Assembly: GCA_010672165.1 (NCBI GenBank)
Contig: JAAHHN010000060.1
Span: 1-32,556, forward strand
DNA length: 32,556 nucleotides
Direction: 5' to 3'
Source of the DNA: Spirulina sp. SIO3F2
GTDB taxonomy: Bacteria; Cyanobacteriota; Cyanobacteriia; Cyanobacteriales; Spirulinaceae
Below, piece after piece: positions 1,092 through 25,103 of the stretch. A program made the position numbers and the translations under genes. How positions within the stretch are numbered: position 1 is the stretch's first letter; every line of letters begins with the position of its first letter. The notes beneath the pieces are model-generated. The model was not told the DNA's origin and ran no database searches. It worked only from the letters and a program-made list of their open reading frames with translations.

Positions 1092-1123
1092 GCACAAACC
1101 TGATTTTTAGAGTTGACAAAGCA

Positions 1124-1235: not shown

Positions 1236-1251
1236 CTCAGTCCATTGAGAC

Positions 1252-1620: not shown

Positions 1621-1787
1621 ACTGGCTCCTAATTCGTTCAACTTTCTCCATTACTTACAAAAATGTGGGTACTTGTCAATATCTTGGCAAGGACACTAGG
1701 CTAGATCTTAAGCGAGGACGTCACCTAAAGCGATCGCGTTGTCCTGCTTTAACCCAAACACCCCCATCACATCTGTGGAGATCCCCC

Positions 1788-2630
1788 ATGAAAGATCATT
1801 TCACGACGTTCAAAGTCACAGTCAAAAACGCGATCGCCTGGGTCACGTTTGACTATCCGCCCGTTAATATTCAGGGCTTGCCCATGCTTGCAGACTTAAA
1901 TACGTTGGCCCAACGGCTTGAAACGAATCGAGAGATTAAGGTCGTGGTCTTTCAATCCGCCCATCCCGAGATTTTCGTCGCCCATGCCGACACAGACTTT
2001 CTCAAGGAAATGTCCGCCACAGCAGTGCCCCGTGACGAGGTGAAGCTGCTGGATCTGCAAGCTACATTGGAGCGGATCAGTAAACTGCCCCAAGCGACGA
2101 TCGCCAAGATCGAAGGCTTTGCGCGGGGTGGTGGTCATGAGTTTGCCCTGGCTTGCGATATGCGCTTTGCAGCACGGGGCAAAGCCAAGTTTATGCAAAT
2201 GGAAGTGGGCATGGGCATCCTCCCCTGTGGTGGCGGAGCATCCCGCATGGCGCGTCAAACAGGTCTAGGGAAAGCACTAGAGATTATTCTGGGCGCTCAA
2301 GACTTTGACGCGGATCAAGCTGAAGCCTATGGCACAGTTAACAAGGCTCTCGAACCCGAGGAAATTGGTGCCTATGTGGAAGCGCTCGCCCAGCGAATTG
2401 CCCTTTGGCCGGCTGAGTCGATTAATGCTTGCAAACAGGCGGTTTACGCTTCGATTGATAAGCCCATTGCAGCGGCGCTAAAGGAAGAAGCCTATTGGCT
2501 CTATCAAGCGACCAGCCAAACCCCGGCTCTCAAGCGTTTCCAATGGGCGGATGACAACGGTGCGCAGTTTGATCTGAATAATCAGCGAGCTTGGCCCGAA
2601 CTTGTGGTTGGTGTTCAAGAGATCAATTGA
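1788..2630 (+). CDS. Enoyl-CoA hydratase/isomerase (crotonase) family protein
   Basis: A 280-residue crotonase-fold enzyme. The start is the ATG at 1788 with GGAG seven bases upstream; an upstream in-frame extension has no supporting ribosome site. The oxyanion-hole segment ARGGGHEFALACD is at about 112-124, and both acid residues used by hydratases appear conserved: Glu139 in MQMEVGMGILPCGGG and Glu165 in KALEIILGA. The reaction would be hydration, isomerisation or cleavage of an acyl-CoA. Typical hydratases are about 260 residues. It is the first gene of an operon, with the flavin oxidoreductase 18 bases downstream and a short-chain dehydrogenase after that. This looks like a small peripheral oxidation pathway rather than full beta-oxidation. 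Regulation by the divergent HxlR protein is likely. Confidence 0.88.
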   Translation: MKDHFTTFKVTVKNAIAWVTFDYPPVNIQGLPMLADLNTLAQRLETNREIKVVVFQSAHPEIFVAHADTDFLKEMSATAVPRDEVKLLDLQATLERISKLPQATIAKIEGFARGGGHEFALACDMRFAARGKAKFMQMEVGMGILPCGGGASRMARQTGLGKALEIILGAQDFDADQAEAYGTVNKALEPEEIGAYVEALAQRIALWPAESINACKQAVYASIDKPIAAALKEEAYWLYQATSQTPALKRFQWADDNGAQFDLNNQRAWPELVVGVQEIN

Positions 2631-2648
2631 TAGGAACAGAATTTAACA

Positions 2649-3617
2649 ATGCTCAAACAACTCGAAAATACAACCTTTCAACCCATCAATCGGGGCTACA
2701 ACAGCGTGTTCCAGCCCAACCGTCTGAGCTTGGGTTTGGTCGTACCGATTGAAACCTATGCCCGGAGCGCCGTACCGACACTGACTCACCATCTTGAACG
2801 GATTCAACTGGCAGAAGCCCTAGGTTTTGCTGCTGTCTGGCTGCGAGATGTACCGTTTAATGTGCCCTCTTTTGGTGATGCCGGCCAAACCTACGATCCC
2901 TTTGTGTATTTGGGTTTGCTGGCGGGTCAAACCAAACAAATTGCCTTGGGGGTCGCCAGCATTATCCTACCCCTGCGTCATCCCGCCCATGTGGCCAAGG
3001 CAGCGGCAAGTGCCGATGTGCTCTCTGGGGGGCGGCTAATTCTGGGGGTGGCATCGGGCGATCGCCCGGAGGAATACCCTGCGCTTAATCTGTCCTATGG
3101 CGATCGCAGCGCACGATTTCGGGAGAGCTTTGGTTACATTCGACGCATGGGTGAAGCAACACCCGCTTTTGAAAATCATTATGGCAGTCCCAGAGGGGGG
3201 ATGGATATGTTGCCCAAGCCTACCGCTGGTAAACTCCCACTGCTGATTACGGGGGGTAGCCAGCAAGCTCCTGAATGGATCGCGCAGAATGGCGATGGCT
3301 GGATGACCTATCCCCGCAATCCGGTGTTGCAGGCTCAGGTGATTCAAGATTGGCAGGCGCGGGTTGAGTCAGTGGGACGCCCTGCCCAGCCTGTGATGCA
3401 ACCGCTTTATATAGATCTCATTGACGATCCTGATGCACCACCGCAGCCGATTCATCTCGGTTTCCGACTCGGGATTAACGCGCTCCGGACTTATCTAAAA
3501 TCTTTAGAGGCGATCGGTGTCAACCATGTAGCGCTAAATCTTCGCTTTAATCAAACCAATGTCGAAACAACGCTGAAACGTCTGGCAGATGAGCTATTAC
3601 CAGATTTTGCGACGTAA
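2649..3617 (+). CDS. Luciferase-like (LLM class) flavin-dependent oxidoreductase
   Basis: A 322-residue TIM-barrel flavoprotein of the bacterial-luciferase superfamily. Landmarks are LSLGLVVPIE near the start, AEALGFAAVWLRDVPF, IALGVASIILPLRHP (the beta strand lining the flavin site), LSGGRLILGVASGDRPEEY (phosphate-binding region) and GKLPLLITGGSQQAPEWIAQNGDGWMTYPR split over 233-263. The length and the layout recall the subgroup named after Bacillus BA3436. Such enzymes use reduced FMN, or F420 in some bacteria, to oxidise or mono-oxygenate small organics. It sits between a crotonase and a short-chain dehydrogenase with gaps of 18 and 15 bases, so all three are almost certainly co-transcribed. 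A weak AGGA lies upstream of the start. The substrate is unknown. Confidence 0.88.
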   Translation: MLKQLENTTFQPINRGYNSVFQPNRLSLGLVVPIETYARSAVPTLTHHLERIQLAEALGFAAVWLRDVPFNVPSFGDAGQTYDPFVYLGLLAGQTKQIALGVASIILPLRHPAHVAKAAASADVLSGGRLILGVASGDRPEEYPALNLSYGDRSARFRESFGYIRRMGEATPAFENHYGSPRGGMDMLPKPTAGKLPLLITGGSQQAPEWIAQNGDGWMTYPRNPVLQAQVIQDWQARVESVGRPAQPVMQPLYIDLIDDPDAPPQPIHLGFRLGINALRTYLKSLEAIGVNHVALNLRFNQTNVETTLKRLADELLPDFAT

Positions 3618-3632
3618 ACAGAGCATAGAACA

Positions 3633-4436
3633 ATGACCAAAACCATTCTTATTACAGGTGCAACCGATGGTATCGGACGCGAAACAGCGAAGAGTCTGGC
3701 CGCATTAGGTCACACCATTCTCTTGCACGGGCGGAATGCAGCCAAGTTGGCAACAGTAGAGCAAGAACTGACGACAGGTAGTGGACAGGTTGGCAGTTTC
3801 GTTGCTGATTTATCCAACATGGCTGAGGTGCTCGCTTTGGCCAAAGCTGTAGCAGCCCAGAACCCTAAGCTAGATGTGCTGATCAATAATGCAGGGGTTT
3901 TCAAAACCACGAACCCCATCACACCGGACGGGTTGGATGTGCGGTTTGTGGTGAACGCGATCGCGCCCTATCTACTCACCCAAAAGCTCATGCCGCTGCT
4001 GAATCCATCGAGCCGGGTCGTCAATGTTTCCTCGGCAGCTCAGTCTCCAGTGAATCTGAAGGCGCTAGCGGGGCGGGTGAAGATTGCCCAGGACTTCAGC
4101 GCTTATGCCCAGAGCAAGCTGGCTCTGACGATGTGGTCGCGGGTGCTGGCGTTGAAACCCAATAATCCGGTCATCGTTGCAGTGAATCCGGGGTCGATGC
4201 TGGGTAGCAAGATGGTGAAGCAAGCGTTTGGTGTGCCAGGGGGTGATCTGCGCATCGGTGCAGATATCCTCACACGGGCGGTTTTAGCCGATGACTTTGC
4301 AACCGCTTCCGGCAAATATTTCGATAATGATTCGGGTCAGTTTGCACCACCCCATGGAGATGCGTTAGATGCGCAAAAATGTGAGGCAGTTGTGAGTACG
4401 ATCGAGTCAATTTTTCGAGGTTCCCGAGATGATTAA
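3633..4436 (+). CDS. Short-chain dehydrogenase/reductase (SDR)
   Basis: A 267-residue classical SDR oxidoreductase. The cofactor motif TGATDGIG starts at residue 8, NNAG is at 85-88, the catalytic serine is in NVSSAA (131-136), and the active-site YAQSK gives Tyr158 and Lys162. HGRN after the second strand (32-35) suggests NADP preference. It ends the crotonase/flavin-oxidoreductase operon and would reduce or oxidise an alcohol/ketone intermediate. The last four bases (4433-4436) overlap the end of the convergent EF-hand gene, so the two transcripts must overlap at their 3' ends. No terminator is visible between them. Confidence 0.92.
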   Translation: MTKTILITGATDGIGRETAKSLAALGHTILLHGRNAAKLATVEQELTTGSGQVGSFVADLSNMAEVLALAKAVAAQNPKLDVLINNAGVFKTTNPITPDGLDVRFVVNAIAPYLLTQKLMPLLNPSSRVVNVSSAAQSPVNLKALAGRVKIAQDFSAYAQSKLALTMWSRVLALKPNNPVIVAVNPGSMLGSKMVKQAFGVPGGDLRIGADILTRAVLADDFATASGKYFDNDSGQFAPPHGDALDAQKCEAVVSTIESIFRGSRDD

Positions 4437-4978
4437 TACGGCCCAAAAACCAAGTTCCCTGGTGCATTGGGATCATCACTATAGAAAAACTCATCCATCA
4501 GTGCCAACACATCCGCCTTCTTGAGCACACCATCTTGATCAGCGTCGAGCTTCGGGAAAATAATGCTGACATAGACAGGCGAAATGTTGTAAACGCTTAA
4601 AAGCTTAGCCCATTCATCTGCCGAAAGCTCGCCATCTCCATTGGCATCAAACACATCAAATATCAACTCCTGGAGAGATTTCACCTGTTCAGCGTAACGT
4701 TTCTTGTCCGCCAGCACCTCATCGTAGTAGCAAAACCATTCATCAATGGAGATTTGCTGATCTCGATCTGAGTCCGCACTACCCTTAAGGCGTTTCCATT
4801 TCTGAGAAAGCTGGTGGGTAAGCGTAAGACATTTAGGCGATCGCGTACTCCAACCCGCAATTCCGGAGAGCTTTTGGGCCACAGCATCAAAATCCTGACT
4901 CACCAAAGACCCATCGCAGTTGGCATCGTACATACTAAACAGCTTCATCAGCTTGCGTTTCTGGAGATCCGTGAGCAT
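4433..4978 (-). CDS. Four-EF-hand calcium-binding protein
   Basis: A 181-residue acidic protein with four EF-hand loops at about residues 18-29 (DANCDGSLVSQD), 69-80 (DSDRDQQISIDE), 111-122 (DANGDGELSADE) and 145-156 (DADQDGVLKKAD). Loops 2 and 3 end with the canonical Glu at position 12; loops 1 and 4 carry Asp there, which usually lowers calcium affinity or favours magnesium. Spacing and size resemble bacterial calerythrin-like sarcoplasmic-type EF-hand proteins, which act as cytosolic calcium buffers or sensors. No signal peptide is seen. The start ATG (4978-4976) has GGAGG about eight bases upstream. It is convergent with the SDR gene. The partner is unknown. Confidence 0.9.
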   Translation of the reverse strand: MLTDLQKRKLMKLFSMYDANCDGSLVSQDFDAVAQKLSGIAGWSTRSPKCLTLTHQLSQKWKRLKGSADSDRDQQISIDEWFCYYDEVLADKKRYAEQVKSLQELIFDVFDANGDGELSADEWAKLLSVYNISPVYVSIIFPKLDADQDGVLKKADVLALMDEFFYSDDPNAPGNLVFGPY

Positions 4979-5149
4979 GAAATTTGACCCTCCTGGAGGC
5001 GCATAAACAGTAGATAGACCCCATCATAGCGGAGGCATCTCATTGATGAAACAAAGAAAATCTGATGGTTCTTGGGTTTTGTGGTTCTCTTGACCCAGTA
5101 GCCTGTTGAATAATTCAGGATATGTTCGCTGGGTAGATAAACATCGCCC

Positions 5150-6091
5150 CTACAGACCCGGCATAAAATATTTAAACGTGGTATTCCCTTCATAGTCTGA
5201 CAAGGTTGCTAGCGCTTCGGGGGATTGAATGCCGGAATATAGCTCACCATCCAGTTCCCAAGTGGGGAACGATTGAATCCCTGCCGCTTGGCATTGCTCA
5301 GGCTGGGCGTTTTTACCGTCCTTACCACATTCAACATAATTAATCTTGGCAAAGGCTTGTTTACCCAGCAGCAACTTCTGCTCACTACAGTGAGGACACC
5401 AATAGGCGCCATACATCTTGAAGCCCTGACGGCTGAGGTGCTCAGCTAAAGCCATTTCAGCGGGCCCGGATTGGGTTATAATCTCCCAGCCGCTCTTGGG
5501 CTTGGGGCGACTTTTGAGGGTGGGGATTGCCATCCGCCCATCACTGGCTACAACTGGAGGGGTCTGCTGGGCGAAAATCCCGAGGGTTGCCACCAAGGTG
5601 ATCAAAACCACAATCACAGTCGTGGAAATGAGTTGACCCAGATCATCCCAGGTGCGACCGAAAAGTACCAAAATCAGTAGGGTGGCCGAGAAAATTGCTG
5701 AAGCCAAGCAGTAGGGACAAAAAAGATGTAAATCCCAGATTAGAACTCCCATCAGATAAGTGCTGACTGTCGCCATGCCTAACGTTAGCCACAAGAGAGG
5801 TGGATCAGTCCAAGACTTTAAAGCGGGTACAAGCTGGGAGACGATCGTGGCAATTGCCACAACCCCATACGCTGCCATCCCCAAAACACTCAAGGGCACA
5901 CCGAACACGGTCGCGTAGGGACTGTTAAGTACAGCTTGACAACCTTCGCCGGAACTAGGGCAGAGCAAGGTTTGACCTGTCAGTTTAATCCAACTCAGAT
6001 AGCCGGTTAGCCCAAGGCCGAGTAGAGCGATCGCGCCTAGCAGGGGACGAAACCAACGGTGGAGCCAGGGGGTAGAAGCAGTATTCGGCAT
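5150..6091 (-). CDS. Vitamin K epoxide reductase-thioredoxin fusion (thiol-oxidising membrane protein)
   Basis: A 313-residue membrane protein. Residues 15-175 hold the transmembrane VKOR bundle with the loop cysteine pair Cys44/Cys51 (CPSSGEGC) and the active-site CPYC at 125-128. Residues about 205-313 form a thioredoxin-like domain with YWCPHC (Cys232/Cys235), an extra cysteine pair (ECGKDGKNAQPEQC) and the cis-proline motif SFPTWEL. In cyanobacteria and chloroplasts (LTO1) this fusion introduces disulphides into proteins of the lumen or periplasm and passes electrons to quinone; the Synechococcus homologue has a crystal structure. All the required cysteines are present, so it should be active. 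The gene appears monocistronic, with the desaturase about 210 bases upstream. Confidence 0.95.
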   Translation of the reverse strand: MPNTASTPWLHRWFRPLLGAIALLGLGLTGYLSWIKLTGQTLLCPSSGEGCQAVLNSPYATVFGVPLSVLGMAAYGVVAIATIVSQLVPALKSWTDPPLLWLTLGMATVSTYLMGVLIWDLHLFCPYCLASAIFSATLLILVLFGRTWDDLGQLISTTVIVVLITLVATLGIFAQQTPPVVASDGRMAIPTLKSRPKPKSGWEIITQSGPAEMALAEHLSRQGFKMYGAYWCPHCSEQKLLLGKQAFAKINYVECGKDGKNAQPEQCQAAGIQSFPTWELDGELYSGIQSPEALATLSDYEGNTTFKYFMPGL

Positions 6092-8474: not shown

Positions 8475-8924
8475 CCGTCTTGGGTATCGTTATGATTTCC
8501 GTTCGAGTAGATGTTTGGTGATCCCGTGAATGTCGGAGGGCATGATGATTTCTAGGATGCCGCGATTTTAGGTTAGACAAGTCGATTACCCATCACCTAA
8601 TTTGTCAGGAGTGATTGATAGGTTGACTAGCTGACGTGAGGCTGTACAACCCGTTGGGTGGGTTGTTTGAGGAGATTTGGGGTGCGGGTGGGCGATCTTT
8701 TCATTACAACTCTATTGGGCTAAAGAAGATGCTAGGTTGATGTTTGCAGTGTGTAGTATAAGTAATAACCGTTCTACACCTTTTTCTTGTGGGCTTGGTC
8801 ACAAGTAAATATAGTCAAACATAATTACCAGAATCTCCAAAGTTTTACCTCCCTTGATACAACCTACTGGCATGTGACACATGTGATAAGTTACAGTACT
8901 GTTAGTGAGTTTCATGAAAATTCC
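8475..8924. other. Intergenic left margin of the AT-rich island
   Basis: No convincing gene is seen. The DNA changes here from HIP1-containing, GC-balanced sequence to clearly AT-rich sequence at roughly 8690-8750, which I take as the left margin of the island. A small hairpin is noted at 8646-8666. A 99-codon frame starting at 8787 has no motifs and runs through the 8925-9015 element, so I do not count it as a gene. No tRNA or attachment-site repeat was found. Confidence 0.55.
8646..8666 (+). terminator. Weak candidate terminator hairpin
   Basis: ACAACCC (8646-8652) pairs exactly with GGGTTGT (8660-8666) around a seven-base loop, 172 bases downstream of the methionine-gamma-lyase-like gene. 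Only TTTGAGG follows, so there is no proper U-tract. It could equally be a degraded repeat. Confidence 0.3.
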
Positions 8925-9015
8925 GGGAGTGTTCAGGAAAGTGTGTTTGATCTGACTAAAACCCTTGGTTTCTCGTTCCCAGATCTGGGATTTACACAAA
9001 ATTTTGATCAGACCC
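8925..9015 (+). mobile_element. 91-bp MITE-like element, copy A, with 7-bp target duplication
   Basis: The element starts GGGAGTGTTCAGGAAAGTGTG and ends GGATTTACACAAAATTTTGA...GACCC. Its two ends are imperfect inverted repeats (about 15 of 21 positions by hand). AAATTCC lies immediately outside both ends (8918-8924 and 9016-9022), which looks like a target-site duplication. A second copy of exactly the same length lies inverted at 12141-12231; my ungapped hand alignment gives 71 of 91 identical bases. The TTTTGTGTAAATCC motif at one end recalls IS256-family termini. No transposase is encoded here, so this would be a non-autonomous derivative. Confidence 0.8.
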
Positions 9016-9020
9016 AAATT

Positions 9021-9046
9021 CCTTCAAGACAAGCTTGTCTTGAAGG
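9021..9046. promoter_or_regulatory. Perfect 26-bp palindrome, operator-like
   Basis: CCTTCAAGACAAG (9021-9033) is followed directly by its exact reverse complement CTTGTCTTGAAGG (9034-9046). Its right arm contains the -35 box of the promoter at 9040-9068. A perfect palindrome without a T-run, placed over a -35 box, is best explained as the binding site of a dimeric repressor controlling the topoisomerase-like operon. No regulator gene is found next to it. Confidence 0.65.
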
Positions 9047-9068
9047 GATCATGAACAATATGTATACT
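9040..9068 (+). promoter_or_regulatory. Sigma70-type promoter of the topoisomerase-like operon
   Basis: TTGAAG (9040-9045, 4/6 to TTGACA) and TATACT (9063-9068, 5/6 to TATAAT) are separated by exactly 17 bases. Transcription would start near 9075, giving a leader of about 77 bases before the ATG at 9152. The -35 box lies within the palindrome at 9021-9046. Confidence 0.6.
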
Positions 9069-9151
9069 TTTTTGACTGCCAAGTGATAGCTTTGGCGTAG
9101 TTTGCGAATTTATAGTCCCAAAAACATTATTTGTCAAGGATATTATTGTAT

Positions 9152-11632
9152 ATGTCTAACAGTGGTTCTGGAAATAGATCGTCAAAACCAAAACAAACTC
9201 GAAATGTCCCTCGACCTATACTCAAGAAGAAGTCAAAGCCTCGTCCAAAACTCAAGCCTAAAAGCTCACCTCCTAGCGAGCCACCTCAATTTGAGGTTGA
9301 TGTGATTATCGCTGAGAAACCTCGTATTTCTGGTGCTATAGCTCGGGCATTAGTGAAAAAGGATACGGTGGAAAACTTTCTACATTCAGATATCATTCTA
9401 GTCAATGAGTCTGGACAAGAATCCCAGGAAAAAGTGAGTGATTTACCAGTTTATCTTCGAAAAGATATCAACGAGAGATTTTCTTTCAAGAGCTTGCATG
9501 TGGATCATCAAGGCAAAACCCATGCAGAAAAAGTACGTCGTCGTAGGAGAATAGACGAAACGCTTAAAAGTAATGTCAGTGAAGAGCTCTCATATTACAT
9601 TTTACCTTACGAAAACAAGATAATTATCATTTTTGATACGCAGGGTAATCCGTTAACATACTCTTTGCCAAAGGGAAAGGGTAAAACTCATATTAACTTA
9701 CTTAAGTTAATTGCGTTGAGTGAAAACTGGTCTGATCTATCAGAGCATTTAAGTCTTCAATCATCTTTCCGGAAACGTAAATTGTCTTTTAGAGATAGAG
9801 ATGCCAGCTATTCTGATGAATCGGAATCTTATGTAGCAAGAGCCTTATGGTTTGAGTATGTGCTCGCACAGCAAAGATTGCCCTGCAAATATCAAAAATA
9901 TAGAGAAGGGACACCATTCACTATTGCTAGAATGATTGCTGCAACTGATGAGGATATTGCAGGCTCATACATTTTCTTGTCTATTTTTCAATTGGCAAAT
10001 CAAGTTGCACAGAAGGAGGGAATTCCAGAAATCACTCCTGACAAAGTAAAGCGCTTGGATATGATGTCGTTGGAACCAGAAGTAATAAGAAAATCTCTGT
10101 CAAACTTGAAAGAATTTGAGTGGGATATGGCATTTGCTGGAAAAAACCGTGCTGATTTTGACTTTATTTTTGGAACAACCATGACAACTTGGTTCAAGTC
10201 TATATGGAGAGATGATATCTCTGAGCACAATAAATCTGAACATATACCAGTTTCGATCGGAAGAAATCGATGTCTTGGTCTTCGAGAATTAATCAAACTA
10301 GAAATCGAAGCACAGGAGCGTATTCGTGAAAACGAGATACAGAATTATCTGTTCTTGATTATACCAGGTCTTGTTGGTTGGTATGAAATGGTTGAGTGTA
10401 TAAAAAAAAGAGCATATACTTCCCTTCATATTGAGATGATACAAGATGGTGTTACACCAGCAAACCTTTTACTGAGGTGTCGAGAATCTGGCGTCGGTAC
10501 TCACACAACTCGATATAAAGTCCCCTCCCAATTGAAATCCTTGGGCTTAGCAAAAGACCATAGTGATGATCAATTAGTTTCTACAGCCTACGGAAGGAGT
10601 TATGACAACCTTCTGTATGAATATCTAGATCCATCAGAAAACGTTGGACTTTCTATTTGGAGCATGATGCTCTATGAAAGAATAAAGAATGCAAAAAAAG
10701 TCAATCTTGAAGACATCATTCCTCTGGAAAGAGCTCAAGAGAATTATGACTATTTTATGAATCAATTCTTTCCAGCTTTTCGGGAATATATAGACTTACT
10801 TCAATCCAAAGGTTCGGATATATCACAAACTATAAAGCAATTAAGAAACTTACACTATCATGTACAACATGAAGTTCAATTAACTCTTTCACAAGATAGC
10901 GATAGTTTGTCTATTGATAAACCATTTAAAAATATAACCTATAATGCAGGTTCAGTTTTGTTGAGAGGATATGAATCTTGCTTGCCAGAACAAGAAATCA
11001 TTAACTTGTTTAATGGCACATCTAAAATCTCTAAAATCCAGAGAGTTATTCCACCTGTTGACATTGATATAAGAGGATGTATTCGTCGAGTGTGTGTAAT
11101 CCCTCCAGAATTCAACTTCGGCGTCAAAAAAATCTATAACCCTAGTCTGCTCCTTGACTTGGATCTAAAAAAATCCACAGTTTTTAGAGCAAGTTTAGAA
11201 GGATTTAAAAATTTGAATGAGATCCCTTTGAGCCAAGAGAGTGGGCTTCAGGTTAGATTATTATCCAACTGTAAACCCCTGAATCTTGACTGCTTTGATG
11301 ATTCAGAAATCAATGTTCACTCTCCACACAAGCCCCTGATGATGACCAGTATTTCAAGATCGGATATTTCCGGACCTCTCGGTTTAAAGATTGTCCAAGA
11401 GTACAACAATCCTTGGATATCGACAATTGATAAGCTCAGACGAAATCAAAACGGTGGAATTAATGTTGAGAGATTTGATGCAGACGAACTTAAGTTCCAG
11501 AAAGTTGACTGGTATTCTTATGGTAAGGTTCACAATTTTGAAAGCTTGCTGCTGATAATGTTCAATAAATATGGAATTCCTTTCCACAAAACTGCTAGCA
11601 TGGCACAAGAACTATATCTGAATGTTGATTAA
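9152..11632 (+). CDS. Divergent, apparently circularly permuted type IA topoisomerase-like protein lacking its own catalytic tyrosine motif
   Basis: An 826-residue protein. I choose the ATG at 9152 (AAGGA 11 bases upstream); a TTG at 9131 would add seven residues. Residues 1-48 are a basic, proline/lysine-rich tail. A toprim start, VDVIIAEKPRISGAIARAL, spans 49-67 (Glu55), and its acidic motif is ATDEDIAGSY (Asp266/Asp268; the usual third acid is Ala270). VSIGRNRCLGL (367-377) matches the GRVQTP motif of domain IV. It is followed almost at once by GVTPANLLL and ESGVGTHTTR (433-454), the match to the second half of domain IV that normally comes after the tyrosine domain. The parts resembling domains II/III come last: HKPLMMTSISRSD (726-738) and YGIPFHKTASMAQELY (807-822). 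The chain ends at residue 826, just where GLITYPRTDS would follow. That tyrosine motif instead opens the next gene. AT-rich codon use unlike its neighbours suggests transfer. The family match is good; activity is unproven. Confidence 0.7.
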   Translation: MSNSGSGNRSSKPKQTRNVPRPILKKKSKPRPKLKPKSSPPSEPPQFEVDVIIAEKPRISGAIARALVKKDTVENFLHSDIILVNESGQESQEKVSDLPVYLRKDINERFSFKSLHVDHQGKTHAEKVRRRRRIDETLKSNVSEELSYYILPYENKIIIIFDTQGNPLTYSLPKGKGKTHINLLKLIALSENWSDLSEHLSLQSSFRKRKLSFRDRDASYSDESESYVARALWFEYVLAQQRLPCKYQKYREGTPFTIARMIAATDEDIAGSYIFLSIFQLANQVAQKEGIPEITPDKVKRLDMMSLEPEVIRKSLSNLKEFEWDMAFAGKNRADFDFIFGTTMTTWFKSIWRDDISEHNKSEHIPVSIGRNRCLGLRELIKLEIEAQERIRENEIQNYLFLIIPGLVGWYEMVECIKKRAYTSLHIEMIQDGVTPANLLLRCRESGVGTHTTRYKVPSQLKSLGLAKDHSDDQLVSTAYGRSYDNLLYEYLDPSENVGLSIWSMMLYERIKNAKKVNLEDIIPLERAQENYDYFMNQFFPAFREYIDLLQSKGSDISQTIKQLRNLHYHVQHEVQLTLSQDSDSLSIDKPFKNITYNAGSVLLRGYESCLPEQEIINLFNGTSKISKIQRVIPPVDIDIRGCIRRVCVIPPEFNFGVKKIYNPSLLLDLDLKKSTVFRASLEGFKNLNEIPLSQESGLQVRLLSNCKPLNLDCFDDSEINVHSPHKPLMMTSISRSDISGPLGLKIVQEYNNPWISTIDKLRRNQNGGINVERFDADELKFQKVDWYSYGKVHNFESLLLIMFNKYGIPFHKTASMAQELYLNVD

Positions 11633-11669
11633 ATATTGTTTTATTAAGGATTTAGACAGTTCTAAAAGC

Positions 11670-11677
11670 AGGAGGAG
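11670..11677 (+). promoter_or_regulatory. Strong ribosome binding site deciding the start of the small downstream gene
   Basis: AGGAGGAG lies six bases before the ATG at 11684, a near-ideal Shine-Dalgarno. It shows that the small protein is started on its own and is not made by read-through from the upstream gene, from which it is separated in the same frame by three TAA stops (11630, 11645 and 11663). Confidence 0.85.
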
Positions 11678-11683
11678 ATTAGT

Positions 11684-12139
11684 ATGAGCAGTTCGTACCC
11701 AAGAACAGAGAATGATAAGTTTGTTCCAGGAAACGAATCGTCTGTGCTCCGCACAGAGAAAGTTATTAATGCTTTTACTGAAGCTAATAGAGGTTTTGAT
11801 CGTGGCGGAAATGAGAAAATGCATGGAACAGGTCATCATGCAGAAAGAATTCAGATGGTAGCAAGGCGTTTAAGAGAAATTGGACATCTTGATATACGCA
11901 TTGATCAAACTCAAGTTGATGCTCATGGTAATCCCATAGACAAAAATAGACCAGATGTTTCATTTACTCACAAAAACACAGGCAATCGTATTAATATTGA
12001 ATACGATAATAATATGCGCTCTAGTGAGAGACATGAGGAGCGAATAAACCGTAACGATCCCAATTCAACTAGAGTATATGCTAATTTTGATTCCAAAGGT
12101 AATATAAAAAAAGGTACAAGAAAACGCAAATCTGAATAA
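11684..12139 (+). CDS. Small protein opening with a topoisomerase IA-type tyrosine motif, then a nuclease/toxin-like domain
   Basis: A 151-residue protein 51 bases downstream of the topoisomerase-like gene, in the same operon. Its first residues, MSSSYPRTENDKFVP, match the active-site strand of topoisomerase III enzymes (ISYPRTETN in eukaryotic TOP3, ITYPRSD in E. coli TopB). Tyr5, Arg7 and Glu9 would be the catalytic tyrosine and its conserved neighbours. The upstream protein stops just before this point. GHHAERI (50-56) might echo the HHAIIPT motif of the same enzymes, but this is weak. Residues 68-135 (DKNRPDVSF, INIEYDNN, HEERINRNDPN) look instead like a small alpha/beta domain seen with polymorphic toxins, with a PD...ExD pattern faintly like PD-(D/E)xK nucleases. 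The C-terminus is strongly basic. No exact family is recognised. If the motif match is real, this supplies the catalytic tyrosine in trans. Confidence 0.65.
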   Translation: MSSSYPRTENDKFVPGNESSVLRTEKVINAFTEANRGFDRGGNEKMHGTGHHAERIQMVARRLREIGHLDIRIDQTQVDAHGNPIDKNRPDVSFTHKNTGNRINIEYDNNMRSSERHEERINRNDPNSTRVYANFDSKGNIKKGTRKRKSE

Positions 12140-12140
12140 G

Positions 12141-12231
12141 GAGAGTGTTATGAATTTTGTGTAAATCCTGAATCTGGCAACGATAAATCAGAGGTTTTAG
12201 CCGGAGCAATCACACTTTTCTGAACACTCCC
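12141..12231 (-). mobile_element. 91-bp MITE-like element, copy B, inverted relative to copy A
   Basis: Read on the minus strand it begins GGGAGTGTTCAGAAAAGTGTG at 12231 and runs to GAATTTTGTG...AGAG at 12141. It is the same length as the 8925-9015 copy, with 71 of 91 bases identical by hand and no gaps. Its own ends also form an imperfect inverted repeat (15 of 21). No target duplication is visible. It begins two bases after the stop codon of the small tyrosine-motif gene and ends 25 bases from the helicase stop, filling the gap between convergent genes, where it may also terminate transcription. Confidence 0.8.
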
Positions 12232-12256
12232 TTCTCTTGATTTAAAAACCACCTTT

Positions 12257-15112
12257 TTAAGTATCTTGAATGTTTTTAGTGTCATAAAATTCTCGAATCT
12301 GTTTTTCCATGTCTGCAAAACTGATAAAGTCTGCATCACTTACACCTGCCCAGTTTTTATTTTTCCCCTTAATATGTTCATTAATCTTAGCTCTGTTGCT
12401 AGATTGAATATGTTCAATTACTATATTTTTTGAAAATCCTTGGACAGGCTTTTGAAGTAGTTCCAGATTCTTCGCTGTGTTTCGCAAATTCAAAAATTCG
12501 TATGAGTTGTTTTTGCTGCTGGTATTTTTAATACCTAATAATCTCTCATCGACCATAATCACAACAGCTCTGTCCCTTGGTGTACGATGAGCACGTCCAA
12601 TTGACTGAGCCAATTTCCTAAAAGCTGCCTGCTTAAAGGCTAACTCTTCAGCTTTCTGGCGTCCATCCTCATAAAACATATTCCAGTAATCAGCTTTTAT
12701 TTTCCCTAAAATTTCCTCAGAGGGTGGAGGATAAGGTAGACCGATTGTAATGACCATTTCCATTGCATCTCCCCTATAATCTACGCCTTCAGCTAAAGTT
12801 CCTCCTTGAACAGCACAAAGAACAACAGTTCTGTTGAGCTTTTCCTTATGCTCTTTCTTCCCAATGTCTTTGAATAATTGTCCTACTGCCTCATCACTGA
12901 AATTAATAACGCCTTGATTTCCCAAAATACTCCGCCAGATAAACTCATGATTTTCACGAAGCCATTGCTTTGTGTTGCTGTATATCGAATCTTTGGAAGT
13001 AATGAAGCCTATAACAATAATTCCTAATTCCTCAGACTTGTCTCTGAGTAGTTCGGCAACCTGCTGAACCATAAGAATGTTGTTGCAAAATATTCCAATA
13101 TTTTTCTTTCGTGCAGGTCTAAATGCATGCTCAAATAATTGAGTGAGAATATCCCGATCCCTAAGAGAAAGAACTCTTTCATTAGATAATGACTGAATAC
13201 CTTGCCTTTGCGATCGCTCATTATCTCTGAATTCATCTTTTAAGCTTGTATTGATTCCAGCAATAAAAAAATGTTTGTAATTTTCTTCTGAAAATATATG
13301 ATTTAATTTGATTTTTAAAGCTGTTGAATAACCCAACATATCTGCAACATCGGTCACGGGAGAAATGGTTGCACTTGAAAATAGAACAGAACGAGAACCT
13401 CCTAGTCTCATCCTAAGCTTTGTTTTTGGATGCAACGCGTATATTTTTGCAGAAGGTTCTGATGGTTTATATCGCATAAAGAACTCGATGGGTGATCGAA
13501 TACATTCTCGTAACAAAATAAATAGCTGAGACAAGTTTTCTGCCGAAAGATGAAAGAACTTTGTGTCATTCCTACTTAATAGATGATCACACTGATGAAT
13601 AACTTCATTCAAGAAATTCTCGATTTTTGGATCTAGATTTGATATAAACTCAAAGAGGTCTTCTGAAATTAGCTCATCCTTTAATGATTGACCAGATTGA
13701 CATTTGGAGAGTGCTATTTGAATCTTATGGAGAACTGCTTTCCCAGATTCTTTCACACTCTTTATGAGATCATTATCACTTTTATGGCTCGTATTGAGCT
13801 GCTCTAAAATTGATGAGATTGGGTAGTTGTCTCCAATTCTATTGACACTTTTTGAGGATTGACCAACTGAAATCGACAAGAATGGCTCATCTGCTGCTGC
13901 TGACAAAAAGCTATGAGCTTCATCAATAACAATTACACATTTTTCCAATGATCCAAAATATTTTTTGATCCAGAAAAGGTCAGATAAATAGCTATGAGGA
14001 GCAACGACTATTCGTGCCTCATTGCTTACTCCCCTCATCGCACCCACTGGACAGTTTCCTGACTCTTTAATCCGTTGTAGCTCATGTTTATCTAAACAAG
14101 TAGCCGATGATAACTTATAGCTATTGCTGCGAAGTCCTCTATAATACTTGCATTCCTTACAATTCCTAGAACTTATATCCGATTGCTCTTGTGATAAATT
14201 TTTATTTCGATTATCTAAGTTAAGCTTTCGAGTAAAACAATTTGTATATTCGTTTTTCACCTTCTCTGCACCGATATGTATAGTCGCATTGATGGTTGAC
14301 AAAGCACTTTTGCTGGCGAGCAATATTTCTGATATCTCTTCAGCAACATTACAGACTTGAGTGACAGTCGCAGAAGTGTAGATGAGACGAGCTTCTGGAT
14401 CACTGAGAAGGTAAGGAAGTACAGATGCAAGACATGCTCGAGTCTTTCCTAAACCTGTTGGTCCTTCAATAATGACATTTCTCCTTGTAACTACACCTTC
14501 ATATCCCGTGTATATAAATTGATGCTGCTGGACTCTAAGCTCTGGTTTCCGACGACCAAAGTTAAACACCAAAGGCATTACCTTCTGTAATGGATCAAGT
14601 GGAATGCTACCATCAGCTAAAGGCTGTAGTATTGATGTTGAATAGCTTGTAACTTGCTGCGGTGAAGAGCTAGAAACTGTGAAATGATCTGTAGGAAGTT
14701 GTGACGAAGCTCGATTAGTTGCCAAGGGGCTAATCGAGCCTTTTGGTGATGGTCTTGCTGTAGAATTTGGCGCTTGATAAGAGTTTGACTTCTTGGTAGA
14801 GAGTTGCTCCTTGCTTGACGGGCTTTGGTTAGATGTTGAAAAACTTGTAGGTTGATTTAGAAAATCTAAAGGCCTATAAGAATTTGAATTTCTGGGATTA
14901 GTTTGTCGCCTCGTTGATATTGTCGATTTTTGGGTAGACAGCAAAGAACCCTTTGGTCTTTTTGAAGGACTTACGGGTGGTCGATGAGATTTCAACTTCC
15001 TGAAAGGATTCTTTCTCCTCGTCCGTTTTGATAAAAACTTAGAAACACTGAAGAGAAAAAAAGTTAGAAGAAGAGTAATAAGTACAAAAAAAAGTATTAA
15101 ATATATCCACAT
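12257..15112 (-). CDS. Membrane-anchored XPD/DinG-like superfamily 2 DNA helicase
   Basis: A 951-residue protein. Residues 3-26 form one hydrophobic helix followed by KFLSKRTRRK, so the bulk should face the cytoplasm. Residues about 35-170 are a Ser/Pro/Thr/Asn-rich, probably disordered linker. The helicase core follows: Q-motif-like RVQQHQF (193-199), Walker A GPTGLGKT (217-224), TSATVTQ, a cysteine cluster (Cys292, Cys318, Cys321, Cys339, Cys354) where XPD/DinG enzymes bind a 4Fe-4S cluster, DEAH (397-400), FSSATISP, GGTLAEGVDYRGDAMEM (motif V) and QSIGRAHR (motif VI, 836-843). This is a 5'-3' helicase architecture. A membrane anchor is unusual for the family. The gene is convergent with the topoisomerase-like pair, shares their low-GC composition and contains only one HIP1 site. 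A topoisomerase IA/helicase partnership recalls reverse gyrase and RecQ-Top3, but the operon link is indirect. Confidence 0.88.
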   Translation of the reverse strand: MWIYLILFFVLITLLLTFFLFSVSKFLSKRTRRKNPFRKLKSHRPPVSPSKRPKGSLLSTQKSTISTRRQTNPRNSNSYRPLDFLNQPTSFSTSNQSPSSKEQLSTKKSNSYQAPNSTARPSPKGSISPLATNRASSQLPTDHFTVSSSSPQQVTSYSTSILQPLADGSIPLDPLQKVMPLVFNFGRRKPELRVQQHQFIYTGYEGVVTRRNVIIEGPTGLGKTRACLASVLPYLLSDPEARLIYTSATVTQVCNVAEEISEILLASKSALSTINATIHIGAEKVKNEYTNCFTRKLNLDNRNKNLSQEQSDISSRNCKECKYYRGLRSNSYKLSSATCLDKHELQRIKESGNCPVGAMRGVSNEARIVVAPHSYLSDLFWIKKYFGSLEKCVIVIDEAHSFLSAAADEPFLSISVGQSSKSVNRIGDNYPISSILEQLNTSHKSDNDLIKSVKESGKAVLHKIQIALSKCQSGQSLKDELISEDLFEFISNLDPKIENFLNEVIHQCDHLLSRNDTKFFHLSAENLSQLFILLRECIRSPIEFFMRYKPSEPSAKIYALHPKTKLRMRLGGSRSVLFSSATISPVTDVADMLGYSTALKIKLNHIFSEENYKHFFIAGINTSLKDEFRDNERSQRQGIQSLSNERVLSLRDRDILTQLFEHAFRPARKKNIGIFCNNILMVQQVAELLRDKSEELGIIVIGFITSKDSIYSNTKQWLRENHEFIWRSILGNQGVINFSDEAVGQLFKDIGKKEHKEKLNRTVVLCAVQGGTLAEGVDYRGDAMEMVITIGLPYPPPSEEILGKIKADYWNMFYEDGRQKAEELAFKQAAFRKLAQSIGRAHRTPRDRAVVIMVDERLLGIKNTSSKNNSYEFLNLRNTAKNLELLQKPVQGFSKNIVIEHIQSSNRAKINEHIKGKNKNWAGVSDADFISFADMEKQIREFYDTKNIQDT

Positions 15113-15366
15113 AAAACATACCTAAATTCAAAATAACCTGACTTTTTTTGCTGTAGTAAATATTTACTCAACTACAAGGTGGATGTAGATATTGATTACG
15201 GAAGATAAATGCAGTTTTTCTAAATCAAACAACCACCAAAAACTCGGTACACCCAAACTAGCATAAAACCGATTTCTAGAATTATTCTGAATGGGTGATA
15301 TATACATTTCGTACGGATGGTCTGATTATAGCCAATCACAAATAAGTATGCAGACGCTCACTCAAA
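15113..15366. other. Right margin of the island; helicase promoter region with a palindrome
   Basis: There is no gene in these 254 bases. AGTAAATATTTACT (15155-15168) is a perfect 14-bp palindrome 43-56 bases upstream of the helicase start, overlapped by a TGTAGT/ACTACA pair (15152-15176), and it is well placed for an operator. I found no convincing -35/-10 pair. The DNA returns from AT-rich to HIP1-containing sequence at about 15350. No attachment-site repeat matching the left margin was found. Confidence 0.5.
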
Positions 15367-16095
15367 CTAGAATTCAATCCCCTGCGCCCGAAGACGATCG
15401 CGCAACGCCTCCAACTCCGCCTCAGCCTGCTCCGCTCTAACCCGCTCCCGTTCTGCCCGCTCATACTCCTGCTGACGCGCCTGCTCCGTTTCCTGGGGCG
15501 TCCGTAAATATTCCCCCCGCTCCGGATCAAAAAACCTGAGCTGACCTGTCGCCAGCAGATGTAACTCCAAACCCAACACCTCAGACTTCAACGCAAACCG
15601 CCCATCACTGAGGGGCCGGGCTTGGAGCAGCCCATAGCTACCATCGGCTTGCAACCGTCGTCCCTTGAGCGGTGGATTCAAATAATCCCCCGTAGGGTCA
15701 TATTGAAAATATTCAGGAACCCCCATCCGAGCGTAGGTGATCGGTTTGTCCTGATCATCTTTATTCCGGGTTTTTGCAAAGGTCACTTCCAACACCCAAT
15801 CTGGCATCTTGTTATTTTCCAGCCAAACCCGATAACTCCGGCGGGGGCGATCCTCAACCCCAAAGACCACAAACACATCCGGACAAACCACTGCATCAGG
15901 AACCCCTTGCTCATAAGACAGCCAGAGATTACCCGAAACATAGACATTAGAGCGAGCCTGGAAATATTGCTTCAAGGCTTCAACGCCATAGATAAGGTAA
16001 TCGCGGGCGGGATCACTCTCTGCCATCGGTGCTCCGTCAGGTTCAGGATAGACAATCGGGGTTTTGGGCAGGTCTTTAAGGGGGGTTTGAGTCAT
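15367..16095 (-). CDS. Uma2 (DUF820) family putative restriction endonuclease-like protein
   Basis: A 242-residue member of the Uma2 family, a PD-(D/E)xK nuclease fold greatly expanded in cyanobacteria. Visible are the acidic YPEPDGAPMAESD start, VVCPDVFVVFGV (Asp73), DWVLEVTFAKTRNKDD (Glu103) and YARMGVPEYFQYDP. The C-terminus (about 195-242) is a charged coiled coil rich in Glu, Arg and Ala. I prefer the ATG at 16095 because family members typically begin MTQT; an ATG at 16125 would add ten residues. No ribosome site decides between them. The function of Uma2 proteins is largely unproven; they are suspected remnants or parts of mobile elements. Confidence 0.9.
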   Translation of the reverse strand: MTQTPLKDLPKTPIVYPEPDGAPMAESDPARDYLIYGVEALKQYFQARSNVYVSGNLWLSYEQGVPDAVVCPDVFVVFGVEDRPRRSYRVWLENNKMPDWVLEVTFAKTRNKDDQDKPITYARMGVPEYFQYDPTGDYLNPPLKGRRLQADGSYGLLQARPLSDGRFALKSEVLGLELHLLATGQLRFFDPERGEYLRTPQETEQARQQEYERAERERVRAEQAEAELEALRDRLRAQGIEF

Positions 16096-16205
16096 GGAAA
16101 TACCGCCAGCGCCGTTACTGGGCATGATAGCAAATCCAGAACAAATGATCAGGAAGGGCGTCGCCCAAATATTTGCCAGAGCAACTCAGCTCCTTATAAC
16201 CACCC

Positions 16206-20867: not shown

Positions 20868-21692
20868 ATGACAACCCAGCGCCTAGAAACCTCATCCGAA
20901 GCAACTAGGGATGAATTTCCCCACCCGTTTCCAGATCACACTCAATTACCCGAGTCTGATGGTGAATTTGTGAAAAATTTTCAAGAGCATCCCCAAAGCA
21001 TCCTCCTCACGGAATCGATTCACCCCGTTTTCGAACAACTTCATCCGGATGGGCAATATTGCATCGGTCAAGATAGCGGCATTTATTGGCGAGGTGTGCA
21101 ACCGCCTGAACCGCCGCAGCGGGGAGCTGAAGCCCCGGATTGGTTTTATGTACCGAATGTGCCGCCCACGCTTGATGGTCAAATGCGGCGATCTTATGTG
21201 CTCTGGCAAGAGAGCATTCCACCCCAGATCGTGATTGAGTTTGTTTCGGGCACAGGGGCTGAAGAGCGCGATCGCACACCCTGGAAGGGTAAGTTTTGGG
21301 TCTATGAGACGGTGATTCGCCCTGCCTATTATGCCATTTATGAAGTTCAGAAAGCCCAAGTCGAGGTCTATGCTTTAATCCGCAATCATTATCAGTTGCT
21401 CAATGCCAATGAACAGGGGCGGTTTGCGATCGAGGAGTTGGGGGTTGAGTTGGGCATCTGGGAGGGAACTTATCAAAATGTAGAGTTGCCTTGGTTGCGA
21501 TGGTGGGATGCTCAGGGGAATTTACTCTTGGCGGGGTCGGAGCGGGCTGAACAGGCACAGCAGCAGGCTGACGAAGAATATCAAGCTCGGCGGGCGGCGA
21601 TTCCTCGGTTGCTGGGGATGGGTTTGACGTCGGAGCAGGTGGCGGAGGCGTTGGATTTATCTGTGGCGGAGGTTGAGGCGCAGAGCGGTTAA
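20868..21692 (+). CDS. Second Uma2 (DUF820) family protein
   Basis: A 274-residue Uma2-type protein from a different subgroup than the one at 15367. Marks of the fold are EAPDWFYVPNVPP (Asp of the PD motif), IPPQIVIEFVSGTGAEERDRTPWKGKFWVYE (Glu of the ExV motif, read in two parts) and the C-terminal AAIPRLLGMGLTSEQVAEALDLSVAEV, a helix-turn-helix-like tail common in this subgroup. The N-terminal 60 residues are acidic and proline-rich. A nuclease role is assumed from the fold only. The two copies differ too much to be a recent duplication. Confidence 0.88.
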   Translation: MTTQRLETSSEATRDEFPHPFPDHTQLPESDGEFVKNFQEHPQSILLTESIHPVFEQLHPDGQYCIGQDSGIYWRGVQPPEPPQRGAEAPDWFYVPNVPPTLDGQMRRSYVLWQESIPPQIVIEFVSGTGAEERDRTPWKGKFWVYETVIRPAYYAIYEVQKAQVEVYALIRNHYQLLNANEQGRFAIEELGVELGIWEGTYQNVELPWLRWWDAQGNLLLAGSERAEQAQQQADEEYQARRAAIPRLLGMGLTSEQVAEALDLSVAEVEAQSG

Positions 21693-23659: not shown

Positions 23660-24901
23660 TCAAGGCAACCGCGACATTAACTTCGTAAACCCCTCAAACG
23701 CCCCACTCCACCCCCCCACAAACCAAACCAACCCATCCCCTAAAACGGGTAAATGTCCTTGGGGTGCATCCAGGTCAAACGAGAGTTCCTCATAGGTCAG
23801 CCACTGATCACCAAACTGACACCATCCCAACTCCGTCGCTAGCTTCGGCCAAACCTGGGTAATCCGAGCGCGATTACCACTCAGGGCAATATGATGCTGT
23901 TTTTGGACACTGAGGCCAAAATGTCCCTCACTCGCTTCTAACCAAAGTTCATCTAGGCGCAACAACAGCTCCGGAGGCAAGACCGCCACATCCTCTGGAG
24001 AGAGATAGCCCTGCCGCTCCCGCTGAGCGATCGCCACCAACAACTGAGCCGATCGCAGATCCGCCGCCTGCCATTGCTGTTGGCTTAGCGCTTGGCTCAC
24101 CTGTGCCCATAGCGGTTCGTAGTCCATCTGGGGCTCCGGTGCTGGTAGAGAAATGGTTTCGTCTGCTGGTTCAGGTTCTGGGGTTGCTGCGAACTGAGAC
24201 GCAATATTAGCCACACCCGCCAAGATTGTGGCTTGGACTTGCGCCAATTGTTCTTGCAGTGCTTGCCCTTGCTGCATCTGTTGCCAAACCTGCCGCACCC
24301 AGACCAGTTGGGCAGTCGAAAGGAGCAGAGTCTCCGTAAGTGGCCAAGCACAATAATGGCAAAGGGTTAATGACGGTTCCGACTGAGTCCTTTGGCAGAC
24401 GGGGCAAAGGGTTGGGTTGGCGAAACCGTCATTTAAAGACTTTTGATAGTAAACACTGTAGGGATCATCTTCATAGTCGCCAAACGGTTCAGTGGGGGCA
24501 AAATCGAATTTCTGATAGAGGGCGATCGCTTCCGTTTGATAAATCCCAGTTTCTAACCGCAGGGTATGCAGTTCCTGCTGCTGCGCTGCATCGATCACGG
24601 TCTGCATGAGCTTGGAGCCAATCCCCTTGCCCCGTGCACTCGGTTGCACAAACAGACGCTTAATTTCCCCATAGCCAGCAGCCTCCATTTTCAGGGCAAT
24701 GCAGCCCAAGACCATGCTTGTTGGCGCATCCTGAGCAATCCAAAATGTTATCTCTGGCGCTTCTAGTTCAGCAGGAGAAGATGCATAGTTGCTCTCGGGT
24801 GGATAGAGTTCTGCCAAATAGGCATCGGAAGCAGCAAGGATCTGCCGCGCCCCAGGCTTGTCGGGTGGGCTAATGAGGATTTCGATCGCATCGGTGGACA
24901 T
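23660..24901 (-). CDS. GNAT acetyltransferase - zinc ribbon - GUN4 domain fusion
   Basis: A 413-residue fusion in one uninterrupted frame, from ATG 24901. Residues 5-155 are a GNAT N-acetyltransferase with the acetyl-CoA loop QPSARGKGIGSKL (87-99) and LYQKFDFAPTEPFGDY. CPVC (166-169) and CHYC (181-184) make a four-cysteine zinc ribbon. A Gln/Ala-rich helix and a Pro/Glu linker lead to a GUN4-like domain at 259-405: LSQQQWQAADLRSAQL, LPPELLLRLDELWLEASEGHFGLSVQKQ (span) and LDAPQGHLPVL. GUN4 proper binds protoporphyrin IX and Mg-protoporphyrin to stimulate Mg-chelatase. Stand-alone GUN4 is about 230 residues; cyanobacteria also use the domain as a module in signalling proteins. I infer a tetrapyrrole-sensing regulator of an acetyltransferase. 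The gene stands between unknown genes and a decayed gene. Confidence 0.87.
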   Translation of the reverse strand: MSTDAIEILISPPDKPGARQILAASDAYLAELYPPESNYASSPAELEAPEITFWIAQDAPTSMVLGCIALKMEAAGYGEIKRLFVQPSARGKGIGSKLMQTVIDAAQQQELHTLRLETGIYQTEAIALYQKFDFAPTEPFGDYEDDPYSVYYQKSLNDGFANPTLCPVCQRTQSEPSLTLCHYCAWPLTETLLLSTAQLVWVRQVWQQMQQGQALQEQLAQVQATILAGVANIASQFAATPEPEPADETISLPAPEPQMDYEPLWAQVSQALSQQQWQAADLRSAQLLVAIAQRERQGYLSPEDVAVLPPELLLRLDELWLEASEGHFGLSVQKQHHIALSGNRARITQVWPKLATELGWCQFGDQWLTYEELSFDLDAPQGHLPVLGDGLVWFVGGWSGAFEGFTKLMSRLP

Positions 24902-25103
24902 AAAATCACGCTCAGAAGCAAGGCAAACTGCGATCAATCTTAAGCTGAAGCCGCAGCCAAAACCGTCAAAATGGCTTGATTTAATATTGCAACGGGTCGG
25001 GTGCGCGATGTTAGATGAAATCTTTCACGACGGCTGAATTTTGGCGGGCGTCTAGCCAATTATCGCCGCAGTTGAGGATGCAGGCACAGAAAACCTACGC
25101 GCA

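Follow-up and report, generated by a model that had tools for sequence, protein, structure and literature searches.

A three-gene module in Spirulina sp. SIO3F2 with a possible type IA topoisomerase active site split between two proteins

The window analysed here, a stretch of 32,556 nucleotides that constitutes one entire contig (JAAHHN010000060.1) of the 7.3-Mb genome of Spirulina sp. SIO3F2, carries three genes that are also found together elsewhere: an XPD/Rad3-type helicase (P0001), a Toprim protein derived from type IA topoisomerase (P0002) and a small protein (P0003, the tail protein) that begins with a Y-x-R-T motif, the motif of the topoisomerase catalytic tyrosine. Genome searches show the three gene families, as defined by sequence similarity, to co-occur in three loci of apparently three phyla, the other two being from an uncultured Shewanella (L042) and a Pacearchaeota metagenome-assembled genome (L043). 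The existence of the three-gene module and the placement of the tyrosine on a separate protein are well supported by these comparisons, whereas catalysis and biological role are what we infer from them.

The Toprim protein and the tyrosine-bearing tail

P0002 (9152..11632, plus strand; 826 amino acids) is read from ATG 9152, the list of open reading frames (ORFs) giving TTG 9131. Its family was compared with nine canonical type IA topoisomerases, one from the window genome, one from the L043 genome and seven from plasmids. Residues 145-387 and 427-492 match these enzymes with E-values of 1.6e-10 and 1.6e-5, and profile comparison of the same two regions gave 6.4e-11 and 1.3e-8. In P0002, a Toprim/domain I part extends to the SIGR motif (9296..10312), and a part around GVGTHTTR (10430..10627), also present in the orthologues, corresponds by profile to the topoisomerase segment that follows the gate domains. 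The distance from Toprim/domain I to the GTxxTR motif is about 40 residues in the family versus about 239 in canonical enzymes (279 to 518), where the region absent from the family contains the gate and the catalytic tyrosine. Curated models behave as follows: in the L042 Toprim protein, TIGR01057 is matched to position 211 of 618 at residue 353 and NF004438 again from position 475 of 677 at residue 387; the end of Pfam Topoisom_bac is the best stretch of the orthologues (318-380 and 321-379 of 411), with a second Pfam stretch in L043; and P0002 has no Pfam match at 0.001.

Gate domains II and III were not found in the Toprim chain, save for a pre-tyrosine stretch at the C-terminus, and the catalytic Y-x-R-T is absent from it, the only Y.R[TS] in the Toprim proteins being YGRS at 480 of the window copy. 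E55 (followed by K56), D266 and D268 of the Toprim site are kept in all three proteins, and the third acid of DxDxE is alanine (A270) in all three. These comparisons show the Toprim protein, as far as its sequence can tell, to be a rearranged type IA topoisomerase that is devoid of most of the gate region holding the catalytic tyrosine. The window copy also has a basic tail at residues 1-46 (9152..9289; 13 K/R, 1 D/E), missing from both orthologues.

A tyrosine in the corresponding motif stands at the beginning of the third protein. P0003 (11684..12139, plus strand; 151 amino acids) consists of a body of unrecognised fold preceded by the tail MSSSYPRTEND (11684..11716), and the tails of the other loci read MGSGSYSRTDN (L042, continuing as SYSRTDNK) and MGGSYPRTEND (L043), placing the tyrosine at residues 5, 6 and 5 and Y-x-R-T at 5-8, 6-9 and 5-8 in the window, L042 and L043, respectively. 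Among 701 ORFs of at least 100 amino acids, a count in which overlapping loci are entered repeatedly, Y.RT[DE] within the first 20 residues occurs only in the three tail genes (9 rows, all copies), and Y.R[TS] is present once in each of the nine canonical enzymes. The window and L043 tails are identical in 9 of 11 residues (blastp E 0.004); no other blastp alignment among the three tail proteins is better than 0.06, and that one is also N-terminal. At the sequence level, the tail proteins are thus shown to have a shared N-terminus and bodies that differ in each locus.

The bodies contain short motifs reminiscent of known enzymes, a likeness that no search confirmed: PD ... E-x-D in P0003 may be nuclease-like, GHH in L042 may be HNH-like, and HEMFH in L043 may mark a peptidase. 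Directly downstream of the L043 module lies an unrecognised gene of 253 amino acids, a neighbour that L043 alone has. In viral contigs, the tail patterns gave 0 and 2 matches; the two were put down to chance, with no topoisomerase or XPD-type helicase seen in the surrounding listed ORFs. A fusion of the Toprim and tail proteins was also considered and rejected, as a stop codon and a good ribosome-binding sequence separate the genes in the window, the order is reversed in L042 and the frames differ in L043.

The Toprim chain appears to end where the tail motif would begin. Residues 798-825 of the window protein (pre-tyrosine-like stretch, 11543..11629), ending ...KTASMAQELYLNVD, align with the canonical stretch leading into the active site, whose counterpart in the canonical enzyme of L078 is ...TLALAQQLYLAGLISYPRT. 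The match of family columns 757-782 of 785 with the pre-tyrosine segment of the nine canonical enzymes scores 27.3, a value reached by none of 300 column shuffles (maximum 17.4), and the chains end 4, 2 and 4 residues past a conserved LY, approximately where canonical enzymes enter the tyrosine motif. The C-terminus of the Toprim protein thus seems, less firmly than the points above, to resemble the stretch that leads directly into the catalytic tyrosine. Full circular permutation of domain III is not supported, the half of the domain that follows the tyrosine having been looked for in the chain and not found.

The helicase and its N-terminal anchor

P0001 (12257..15112, minus strand; ATG at 15112, stop at 12257; 951 amino acids) had been described in an earlier note, made from the sequence of the window, as an XPD/DinG-like helicase with a membrane anchor. 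The reading frame is real and of XPD/Rad3 type, and the anatomy given there holds: an N-terminal hydrophobic helix at residues 2-24 (15041..15109), by hydropathy a likely membrane anchor, followed by a positive cluster, a basic Ser/Pro/Thr-rich linker at residues 25-168 (14609..15040; 24 K/R versus 4 D/E) and a complete XPD-type core at residues 190-860 (12533..14545). With Walker A (EGPTGLGKT), a DEAH box at 397-400 and motif VI (QSxGRxHR), all kept in the three helicases, and two helicase domains (Pfam DEAD_2 at 245-407, Helicase_C_2 at 703-860), P0001 is assigned from its motifs to the XPD/Rad3/DinG group of superfamily 2 (SF2). C292, C318, C321 and C354 (14051..14239) are putative iron-sulphur cysteines, assigned by spacing and alignment; the four-cysteine pattern is present in the window and L043, and L042 has lost the iron-sulphur segment.

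The match to NCBIfam rad3 (4e-47, 161 bits) lies under the curated cut-off of 247 bits, as do the matches to all seven NCBIfam models found in relation to their own cut-offs. The PADLOC model typeIV_DinG (PDLC01439) matches residues 190-860 with 3e-58; this model is unspecific, because it also matches in 8 of 14 ordinary control genomes, and the helicases that it finds in 111 of 292 genomes of the phylum are taken as ordinary XPD/DinG relatives. Identity with DinG/Csf4 of type IV CRISPR-Cas was rejected, as TIGR03117 gives P0001 17.8 bits against a cut-off of 400, and a Pfam scan of 20 window proteins showed no Cas family. A genome of the same phylum and another class (G096) carries two DinG/XPD-type helicases (C147:10631-12439 and C289:2416-4242).

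Residues 2-24 contain no K, R, D or E, and the highest 19-residue Kyte-Doolittle mean of P0001 is 2.94. When the whole protein was shuffled 20000 times, 13 shuffles reached this value; among windows that start after residue 40, the maximum is 1.10. According to the positive-inside rule for membrane protein topology, the 10 K/R and the absence of D/E in residues 25-44 predict an N-out/C-in orientation with the helicase in the cytoplasm. The first 180 codons look coding: none of 20000 Markov simulations was free of stops over this length, and GC content varies by codon position (p = 7.5e-5). Alternative starts in the same frame, as far as codon 185, are TTG40, TTG57, TTG130, ATG179, TTG181 and GTG182, of which ATG179 would drop L172 and P174, conserved in both orthologues. 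For these two reasons ATG1 is the likeliest start, although its ribosome-binding site is weak, and the coding character of the 180 codons makes it unlikely that the anchor is an artefact of ORF calling.

Conservation of the anchor across distant homologues, which the earlier note had named as the support to look for, was not found, as neither of the two orthologues has one. The highest 19-residue hydropathy within the first 190 residues is 0.92 in L042 and 0.87 in L043, versus 2.94 in the window. The L042 helicase starts about 15 residues ahead of the conserved region, and the N-terminal region of the L043 helicase, some 150 residues long, is a different one; neither protein has a hydrophobic N-terminus. 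The same note had held that homologues starting near residue 175 would imply a wrongly chosen start; L042 does begin at about the equivalent of residue 160, but this does not prove the window start wrong, because the 180 N-terminal codons of the window copy look coding. Among the three helicases, the anchor is most plausibly a feature of the window copy alone, and the basic tails and the anchor look, from the alignments, like additions of that copy. The helicase may still act on foreign DNA, for a different reason, namely its membership of the three-gene set.

Occurrence and genomic setting of the module

The two orthologous loci were reached through the helicase. Four relatives of P0001 were aligned, and only L034, from the plasmid search, was kept to build a two-sequence profile with P0001 (A2). 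L034 (NZ_CP154629.1, Acetoanaerobium noterae) is a 2.6-Mb record labelled as a plasmid that has chromosomal-looking genes and may be a mislabelled chromosome. The search with A2 yielded 32 loci, of which only L042 and L043 had E-values <1e-100 across most of the protein (tblastn of the helicase orthologues, 1e-113 and 1e-105); the other 30, at 2e-13 or weaker, were set aside. The underlying scan relied on two short patterns and is bound to have overlooked further loci. Both loci come from uncultured assemblies, named here after their record titles, and may have been mis-binned.

The helicase orthologues (L042, 5962-8250; L043, 5545-8289) are 35% and 31% identical to P0001, the Toprim proteins 28% and 36% identical to P0002, and each locus has a third gene with a P0003-like beginning. 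The genes are close or overlapping on one strand, in the order helicase, tail protein, Toprim protein in L042 and helicase, Toprim protein, tail protein in L043. In the window, P0002 and P0003 lie on the plus strand and the helicase is convergent. GC content of the L043 module is slightly above that of the left flank (0.35-0.40 versus 0.29-0.37 per kb), and there is no GC step at the L042 module. Near the L042 module, with two small genes in between, a 1130-amino-acid protein that joins an IrrE-like domain to a UvrD-type helicase and a PD-(D/E)XK nuclease (950-4342, minus strand) has RTasHel and GajB as its best PADLOC matches and may be a separate defence gene. Just upstream of the L043 module, positions 3556-5405 encode a helix-turn-helix/nucleotidyltransferase protein and a YoeB/ParE-like toxin.

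The genome samples searched were small relative to all known species, and in the phylum searches with P0001 and P0002 (386 genomes) at most two candidates were scored per listed genome. P0001 was found in its own genome only, both among 59 relatives at 1e-20 and among the 386 phylum genomes at 1e-15; the same was true of P0002 among the 386 at 1e-5, and P0003 found only itself among 180 relatives. Pattern scans with single proteins revealed no relative of P0001 or P0002, the sole locus of one such scan (L003) looking like an FtsK-type gene. The Toprim family was detected in 0 of 11 genomes examined from the 30 set-aside helicase loci and, with profile A3, in 0 of 398 genomes of the phylum of L056, both searches being without a positive control; in 279 genomes of the archaeal phylum, A3 found the known member only. 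In viral contigs, A3 had no match, and profiles A2 and A4 each gave one weak helicase, on the same contig (E 2e-6 and 3e-6). Plasmids and phages contained weak general helicases only for P0001 (4 plasmid and 5 phage records), and no plasmid match was obtained for P0002, P0003, the Toprim and tail proteins of L042 and L043 or the L042 helicase; for the three Toprim proteins the plasmid set comprised 72,556 records, and the L043 Toprim protein had no match in 50,697 phage records either. PADLOC, run on P0002, P0003, the Toprim and tail proteins of L042 and the L043 tail protein, matched none of them. From these distributions the three-gene set appears to be rare and to move horizontally.

All three window genes lie in a low-GC island (8501..15500, about 8.5-15.5 kb; 34-43% GC per 500-base bin), preceded by bins of 48-59% and followed by 4.5 kb of 50-56%; smaller dips occur farther right, e.g. 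40% at 22.0-22.5 kb. The three genes have about 37% GC and a third-position GC content (GC3) of 0.23-0.32, versus 0.54-0.59 in four other measured genes. An imperfect inverted repeat of 79 nucleotides (84% identity) brackets P0002 and P0003, with a left arm at 8925..9003 and a right arm at 12153..12231. Diverged relatives of the repeat are found elsewhere in the genome (G000) at C120:1788-1864 (79%) and C421:39009-39088 (73%), and no transposase was seen by eye in the ORFs around these two copies. Because of the low GC and GC3, the flanking repeat and the presence only in its own genome among the sampled relatives and phylum, we read the stretch as a rare, acquired island.

The remaining gene content of the window, which by itself suggests a cyanobacterium, includes GUN4, Uma2, DUF4114 and a weak DevB match. 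Two Uma2-family genes (putative endonucleases) lie close to the island (15367-16125, minus strand; 20868-21692, plus strand), the first of which weakly matches the PADLOC candidate models PDC-S03. Farther on, a single ORF (23660-24937, minus strand) combines a GNAT acetyltransferase domain with a GUN4 domain, and another (27124-32250, minus strand) encodes a protein of 1708 amino acids in which seven Calx-beta stretches are combined with DUF4114 and an SdrD-like domain.

Proposed mechanism, alternatives and significance

The most economical reading, to which we give somewhat less than an even chance, is that the module forms a split type IA active site, with single-stranded DNA provided by the helicase and held by the Toprim protein, and its 5' end becoming bound to the tail tyrosine. 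The tail would dock on the Toprim protein and complete the site; the helicase would open duplex DNA to make a single strand, the Toprim protein would bind and cut it, and attack by the tail tyrosine would leave the tail protein attached to the 5' phosphate. Strand passage would not take place without gate arches. Type IA topoisomerases form a 5'-phosphotyrosine link through the tyrosine at the D1/D3 interface, and an arginine that follows it with one residue in between is strictly conserved (PMC7587558, available part of the text). The same part of that source states that divalent metal is absolutely required for resealing only and that the Toprim mutant D111N is lethal through accumulated adducts. 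We take this to mean that a Toprim site lacking one acid might cleave and remain attached; the missing third acid may favour cleavage over resealing. The tail-protein body, perhaps a nuclease or peptidase, would then act on or travel with the tagged DNA, and in the window genome the added anchor and basic linker would keep the helicase at the membrane.

The most likely role is defence or conflict between mobile elements, favoured because of the sporadic occurrence, the conflict-type neighbours and the variable bodies. With a fixed active-site tail and interchangeable bodies, the arrangement seems suited to placing different enzymes on DNA. The fuller version of this proposal is more tentative than the split site itself: a conflict system in which an effector (nuclease, peptidase or other) is covalently charged onto the 5' end of unwound foreign DNA through the split site of Toprim and 11-residue tail, fed by the helicase and, in the window genome, held at the membrane where DNA enters.

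Several observations weigh against the split site and its role in conflict. The activity is read from sequence alone, and with alanine in place of the third Toprim acid in each of the three proteins, the site could be dead. The C-terminal segment was picked for testing after a weak match there (E 0.013), and single-sequence matches are insignificant (3.2, 2.0 and 2.1 bits): 4 of 2100 shuffled sequences reach 3.2 bits and 10 of 2100 reach 2.0 bits, as do three unrelated ORFs among 685 decoys, a further nine decoys being canonical enzymes. As single sequences score low, the evidence for this segment comes from the profile and the register. No post-tyrosine half of domain III was found; 21 of 150 shuffles score equally high. 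No tail-protein body convincingly matches Pfam, NCBIfam or PDB or has a recognised toxin domain, and the structure models were too poor to use (predicted local distance difference test, pLDDT, 38.5 and 39.0). The window helicase is convergent to the other two genes, which means no co-transcription; only three loci are known, two of them from uncultured assemblies; and no immunity gene or defence phenotype is known for the three-gene set.

The loss of the third acid and of most of the gate region, together with the dissimilarity of the partner bodies, would also fit an arrangement in which the Toprim protein no longer cuts and the tail serves as a docking or pseudo-substrate plug, the partner being stored inactive in the manner of toxin-antitoxin pairs and released once the helicase meets foreign or damaged DNA. 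We regard this as rather doubtful, since the reactive tyrosine, the arginine two positions on, the threonine, E55, D266 and D268 are all kept, and a plug alone would not require precisely this set.

It is unlikely that the genes encode a two-chain topoisomerase that teams up with its helicase for repair or decatenation, in the manner of topoisomerase III and BLM, the bodies being accessory domains. Helicases are known as partners of type IA topoisomerases (PMC10969213, in the part available), and the XPD core and Toprim/domain I are well conserved, but most of the gate region is missing with the post-tyrosine half found nowhere else in the chain, the bodies differ between loci, and the distribution is sporadic, with the window genome the only carrier among the 386 sampled from its phylum. 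Quite improbable is a mobile-element tool in which the tail protein acts as a terminal protein on element DNA for transfer, replication or protection; the low-GC island, the repeat arms around two of the genes and the spread over apparently three phyla would suit it, yet the neighbours, scanned or read by eye, include no relaxase, replication or transposase gene, and the plasmid and phage records gave no match to the Toprim proteins searched against them. Tethering of the helicase as the defining feature, for incoming DNA or membrane-bound replication, is very improbable despite the clear hydrophobic helix and positive cluster, as it was already weakened by the lack of an anchor in both orthologues.

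The split site proposed here differs from known systems in distinct ways. The Toprim domain, domain I, GTxxTR and Y-x-R-T of type IA topoisomerases (TopA, topoisomerase III, reverse gyrase) have counterparts in the module, as apparently does the pre-tyrosine helix; unlike in those enzymes, Y-x-R-T is carried by a separate protein, the gate region is mostly absent, the stretch resembling the pre-tyrosine helix is C-terminal and the third Toprim acid is alanine. The helicases have in common with XPD/Rad3/DinG proteins, including the DinG of type IV CRISPR, the SF2 core, DEAH box, motif VI and, in two of three, the four cysteines, and are set apart by a C-terminal extension, the loss of the iron-sulphur segment in L042 and the anchor in the window copy only. 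A conserved N-terminus joined to a variable body is the hallmark of polymorphic toxins, a trait that the module has in common with them, except that what is conserved here is an 11-residue piece of an enzyme active site; the available text of PMC3482391 makes no mention of topoisomerase, Toprim, XPD, Rad3, DinG or tyrosine. PIWI-RE systems follow the same three-gene logic of DinG-type helicase, DNA-handling protein and nuclease, whereas here a Toprim protein replaces PIWI and the partner bodies vary and carry an active-site tail (PMC3702460, available part). The theme of Toprim plus helicase recurs in Gabija, although the Toprims of Gabija and PARIS pair with OLD-type ABC ATPases (PMC12839542, available part).

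Nearest to the module in the literature matches listed are the PIWI-RE systems and a review of type IA topoisomerase diversity (PMC10969213), which in the part available has no words beginning with 'split' or 'permut'. No earlier description of such a system was found among the literature matches listed, whose scope leaves out preprints and most subscription journals. If the split site is correct, it would be the first case known to us of a topoisomerase catalytic tyrosine residing on a different, interchangeable protein. An enzyme that relaxes DNA would then have become a means of joining selected proteins to DNA ends. This would add a mechanism of immunity or conflict, could serve as a compact tool for protein-DNA coupling, and would account for the association of an XPD helicase with a crippled topoisomerase and unrelated small proteins.

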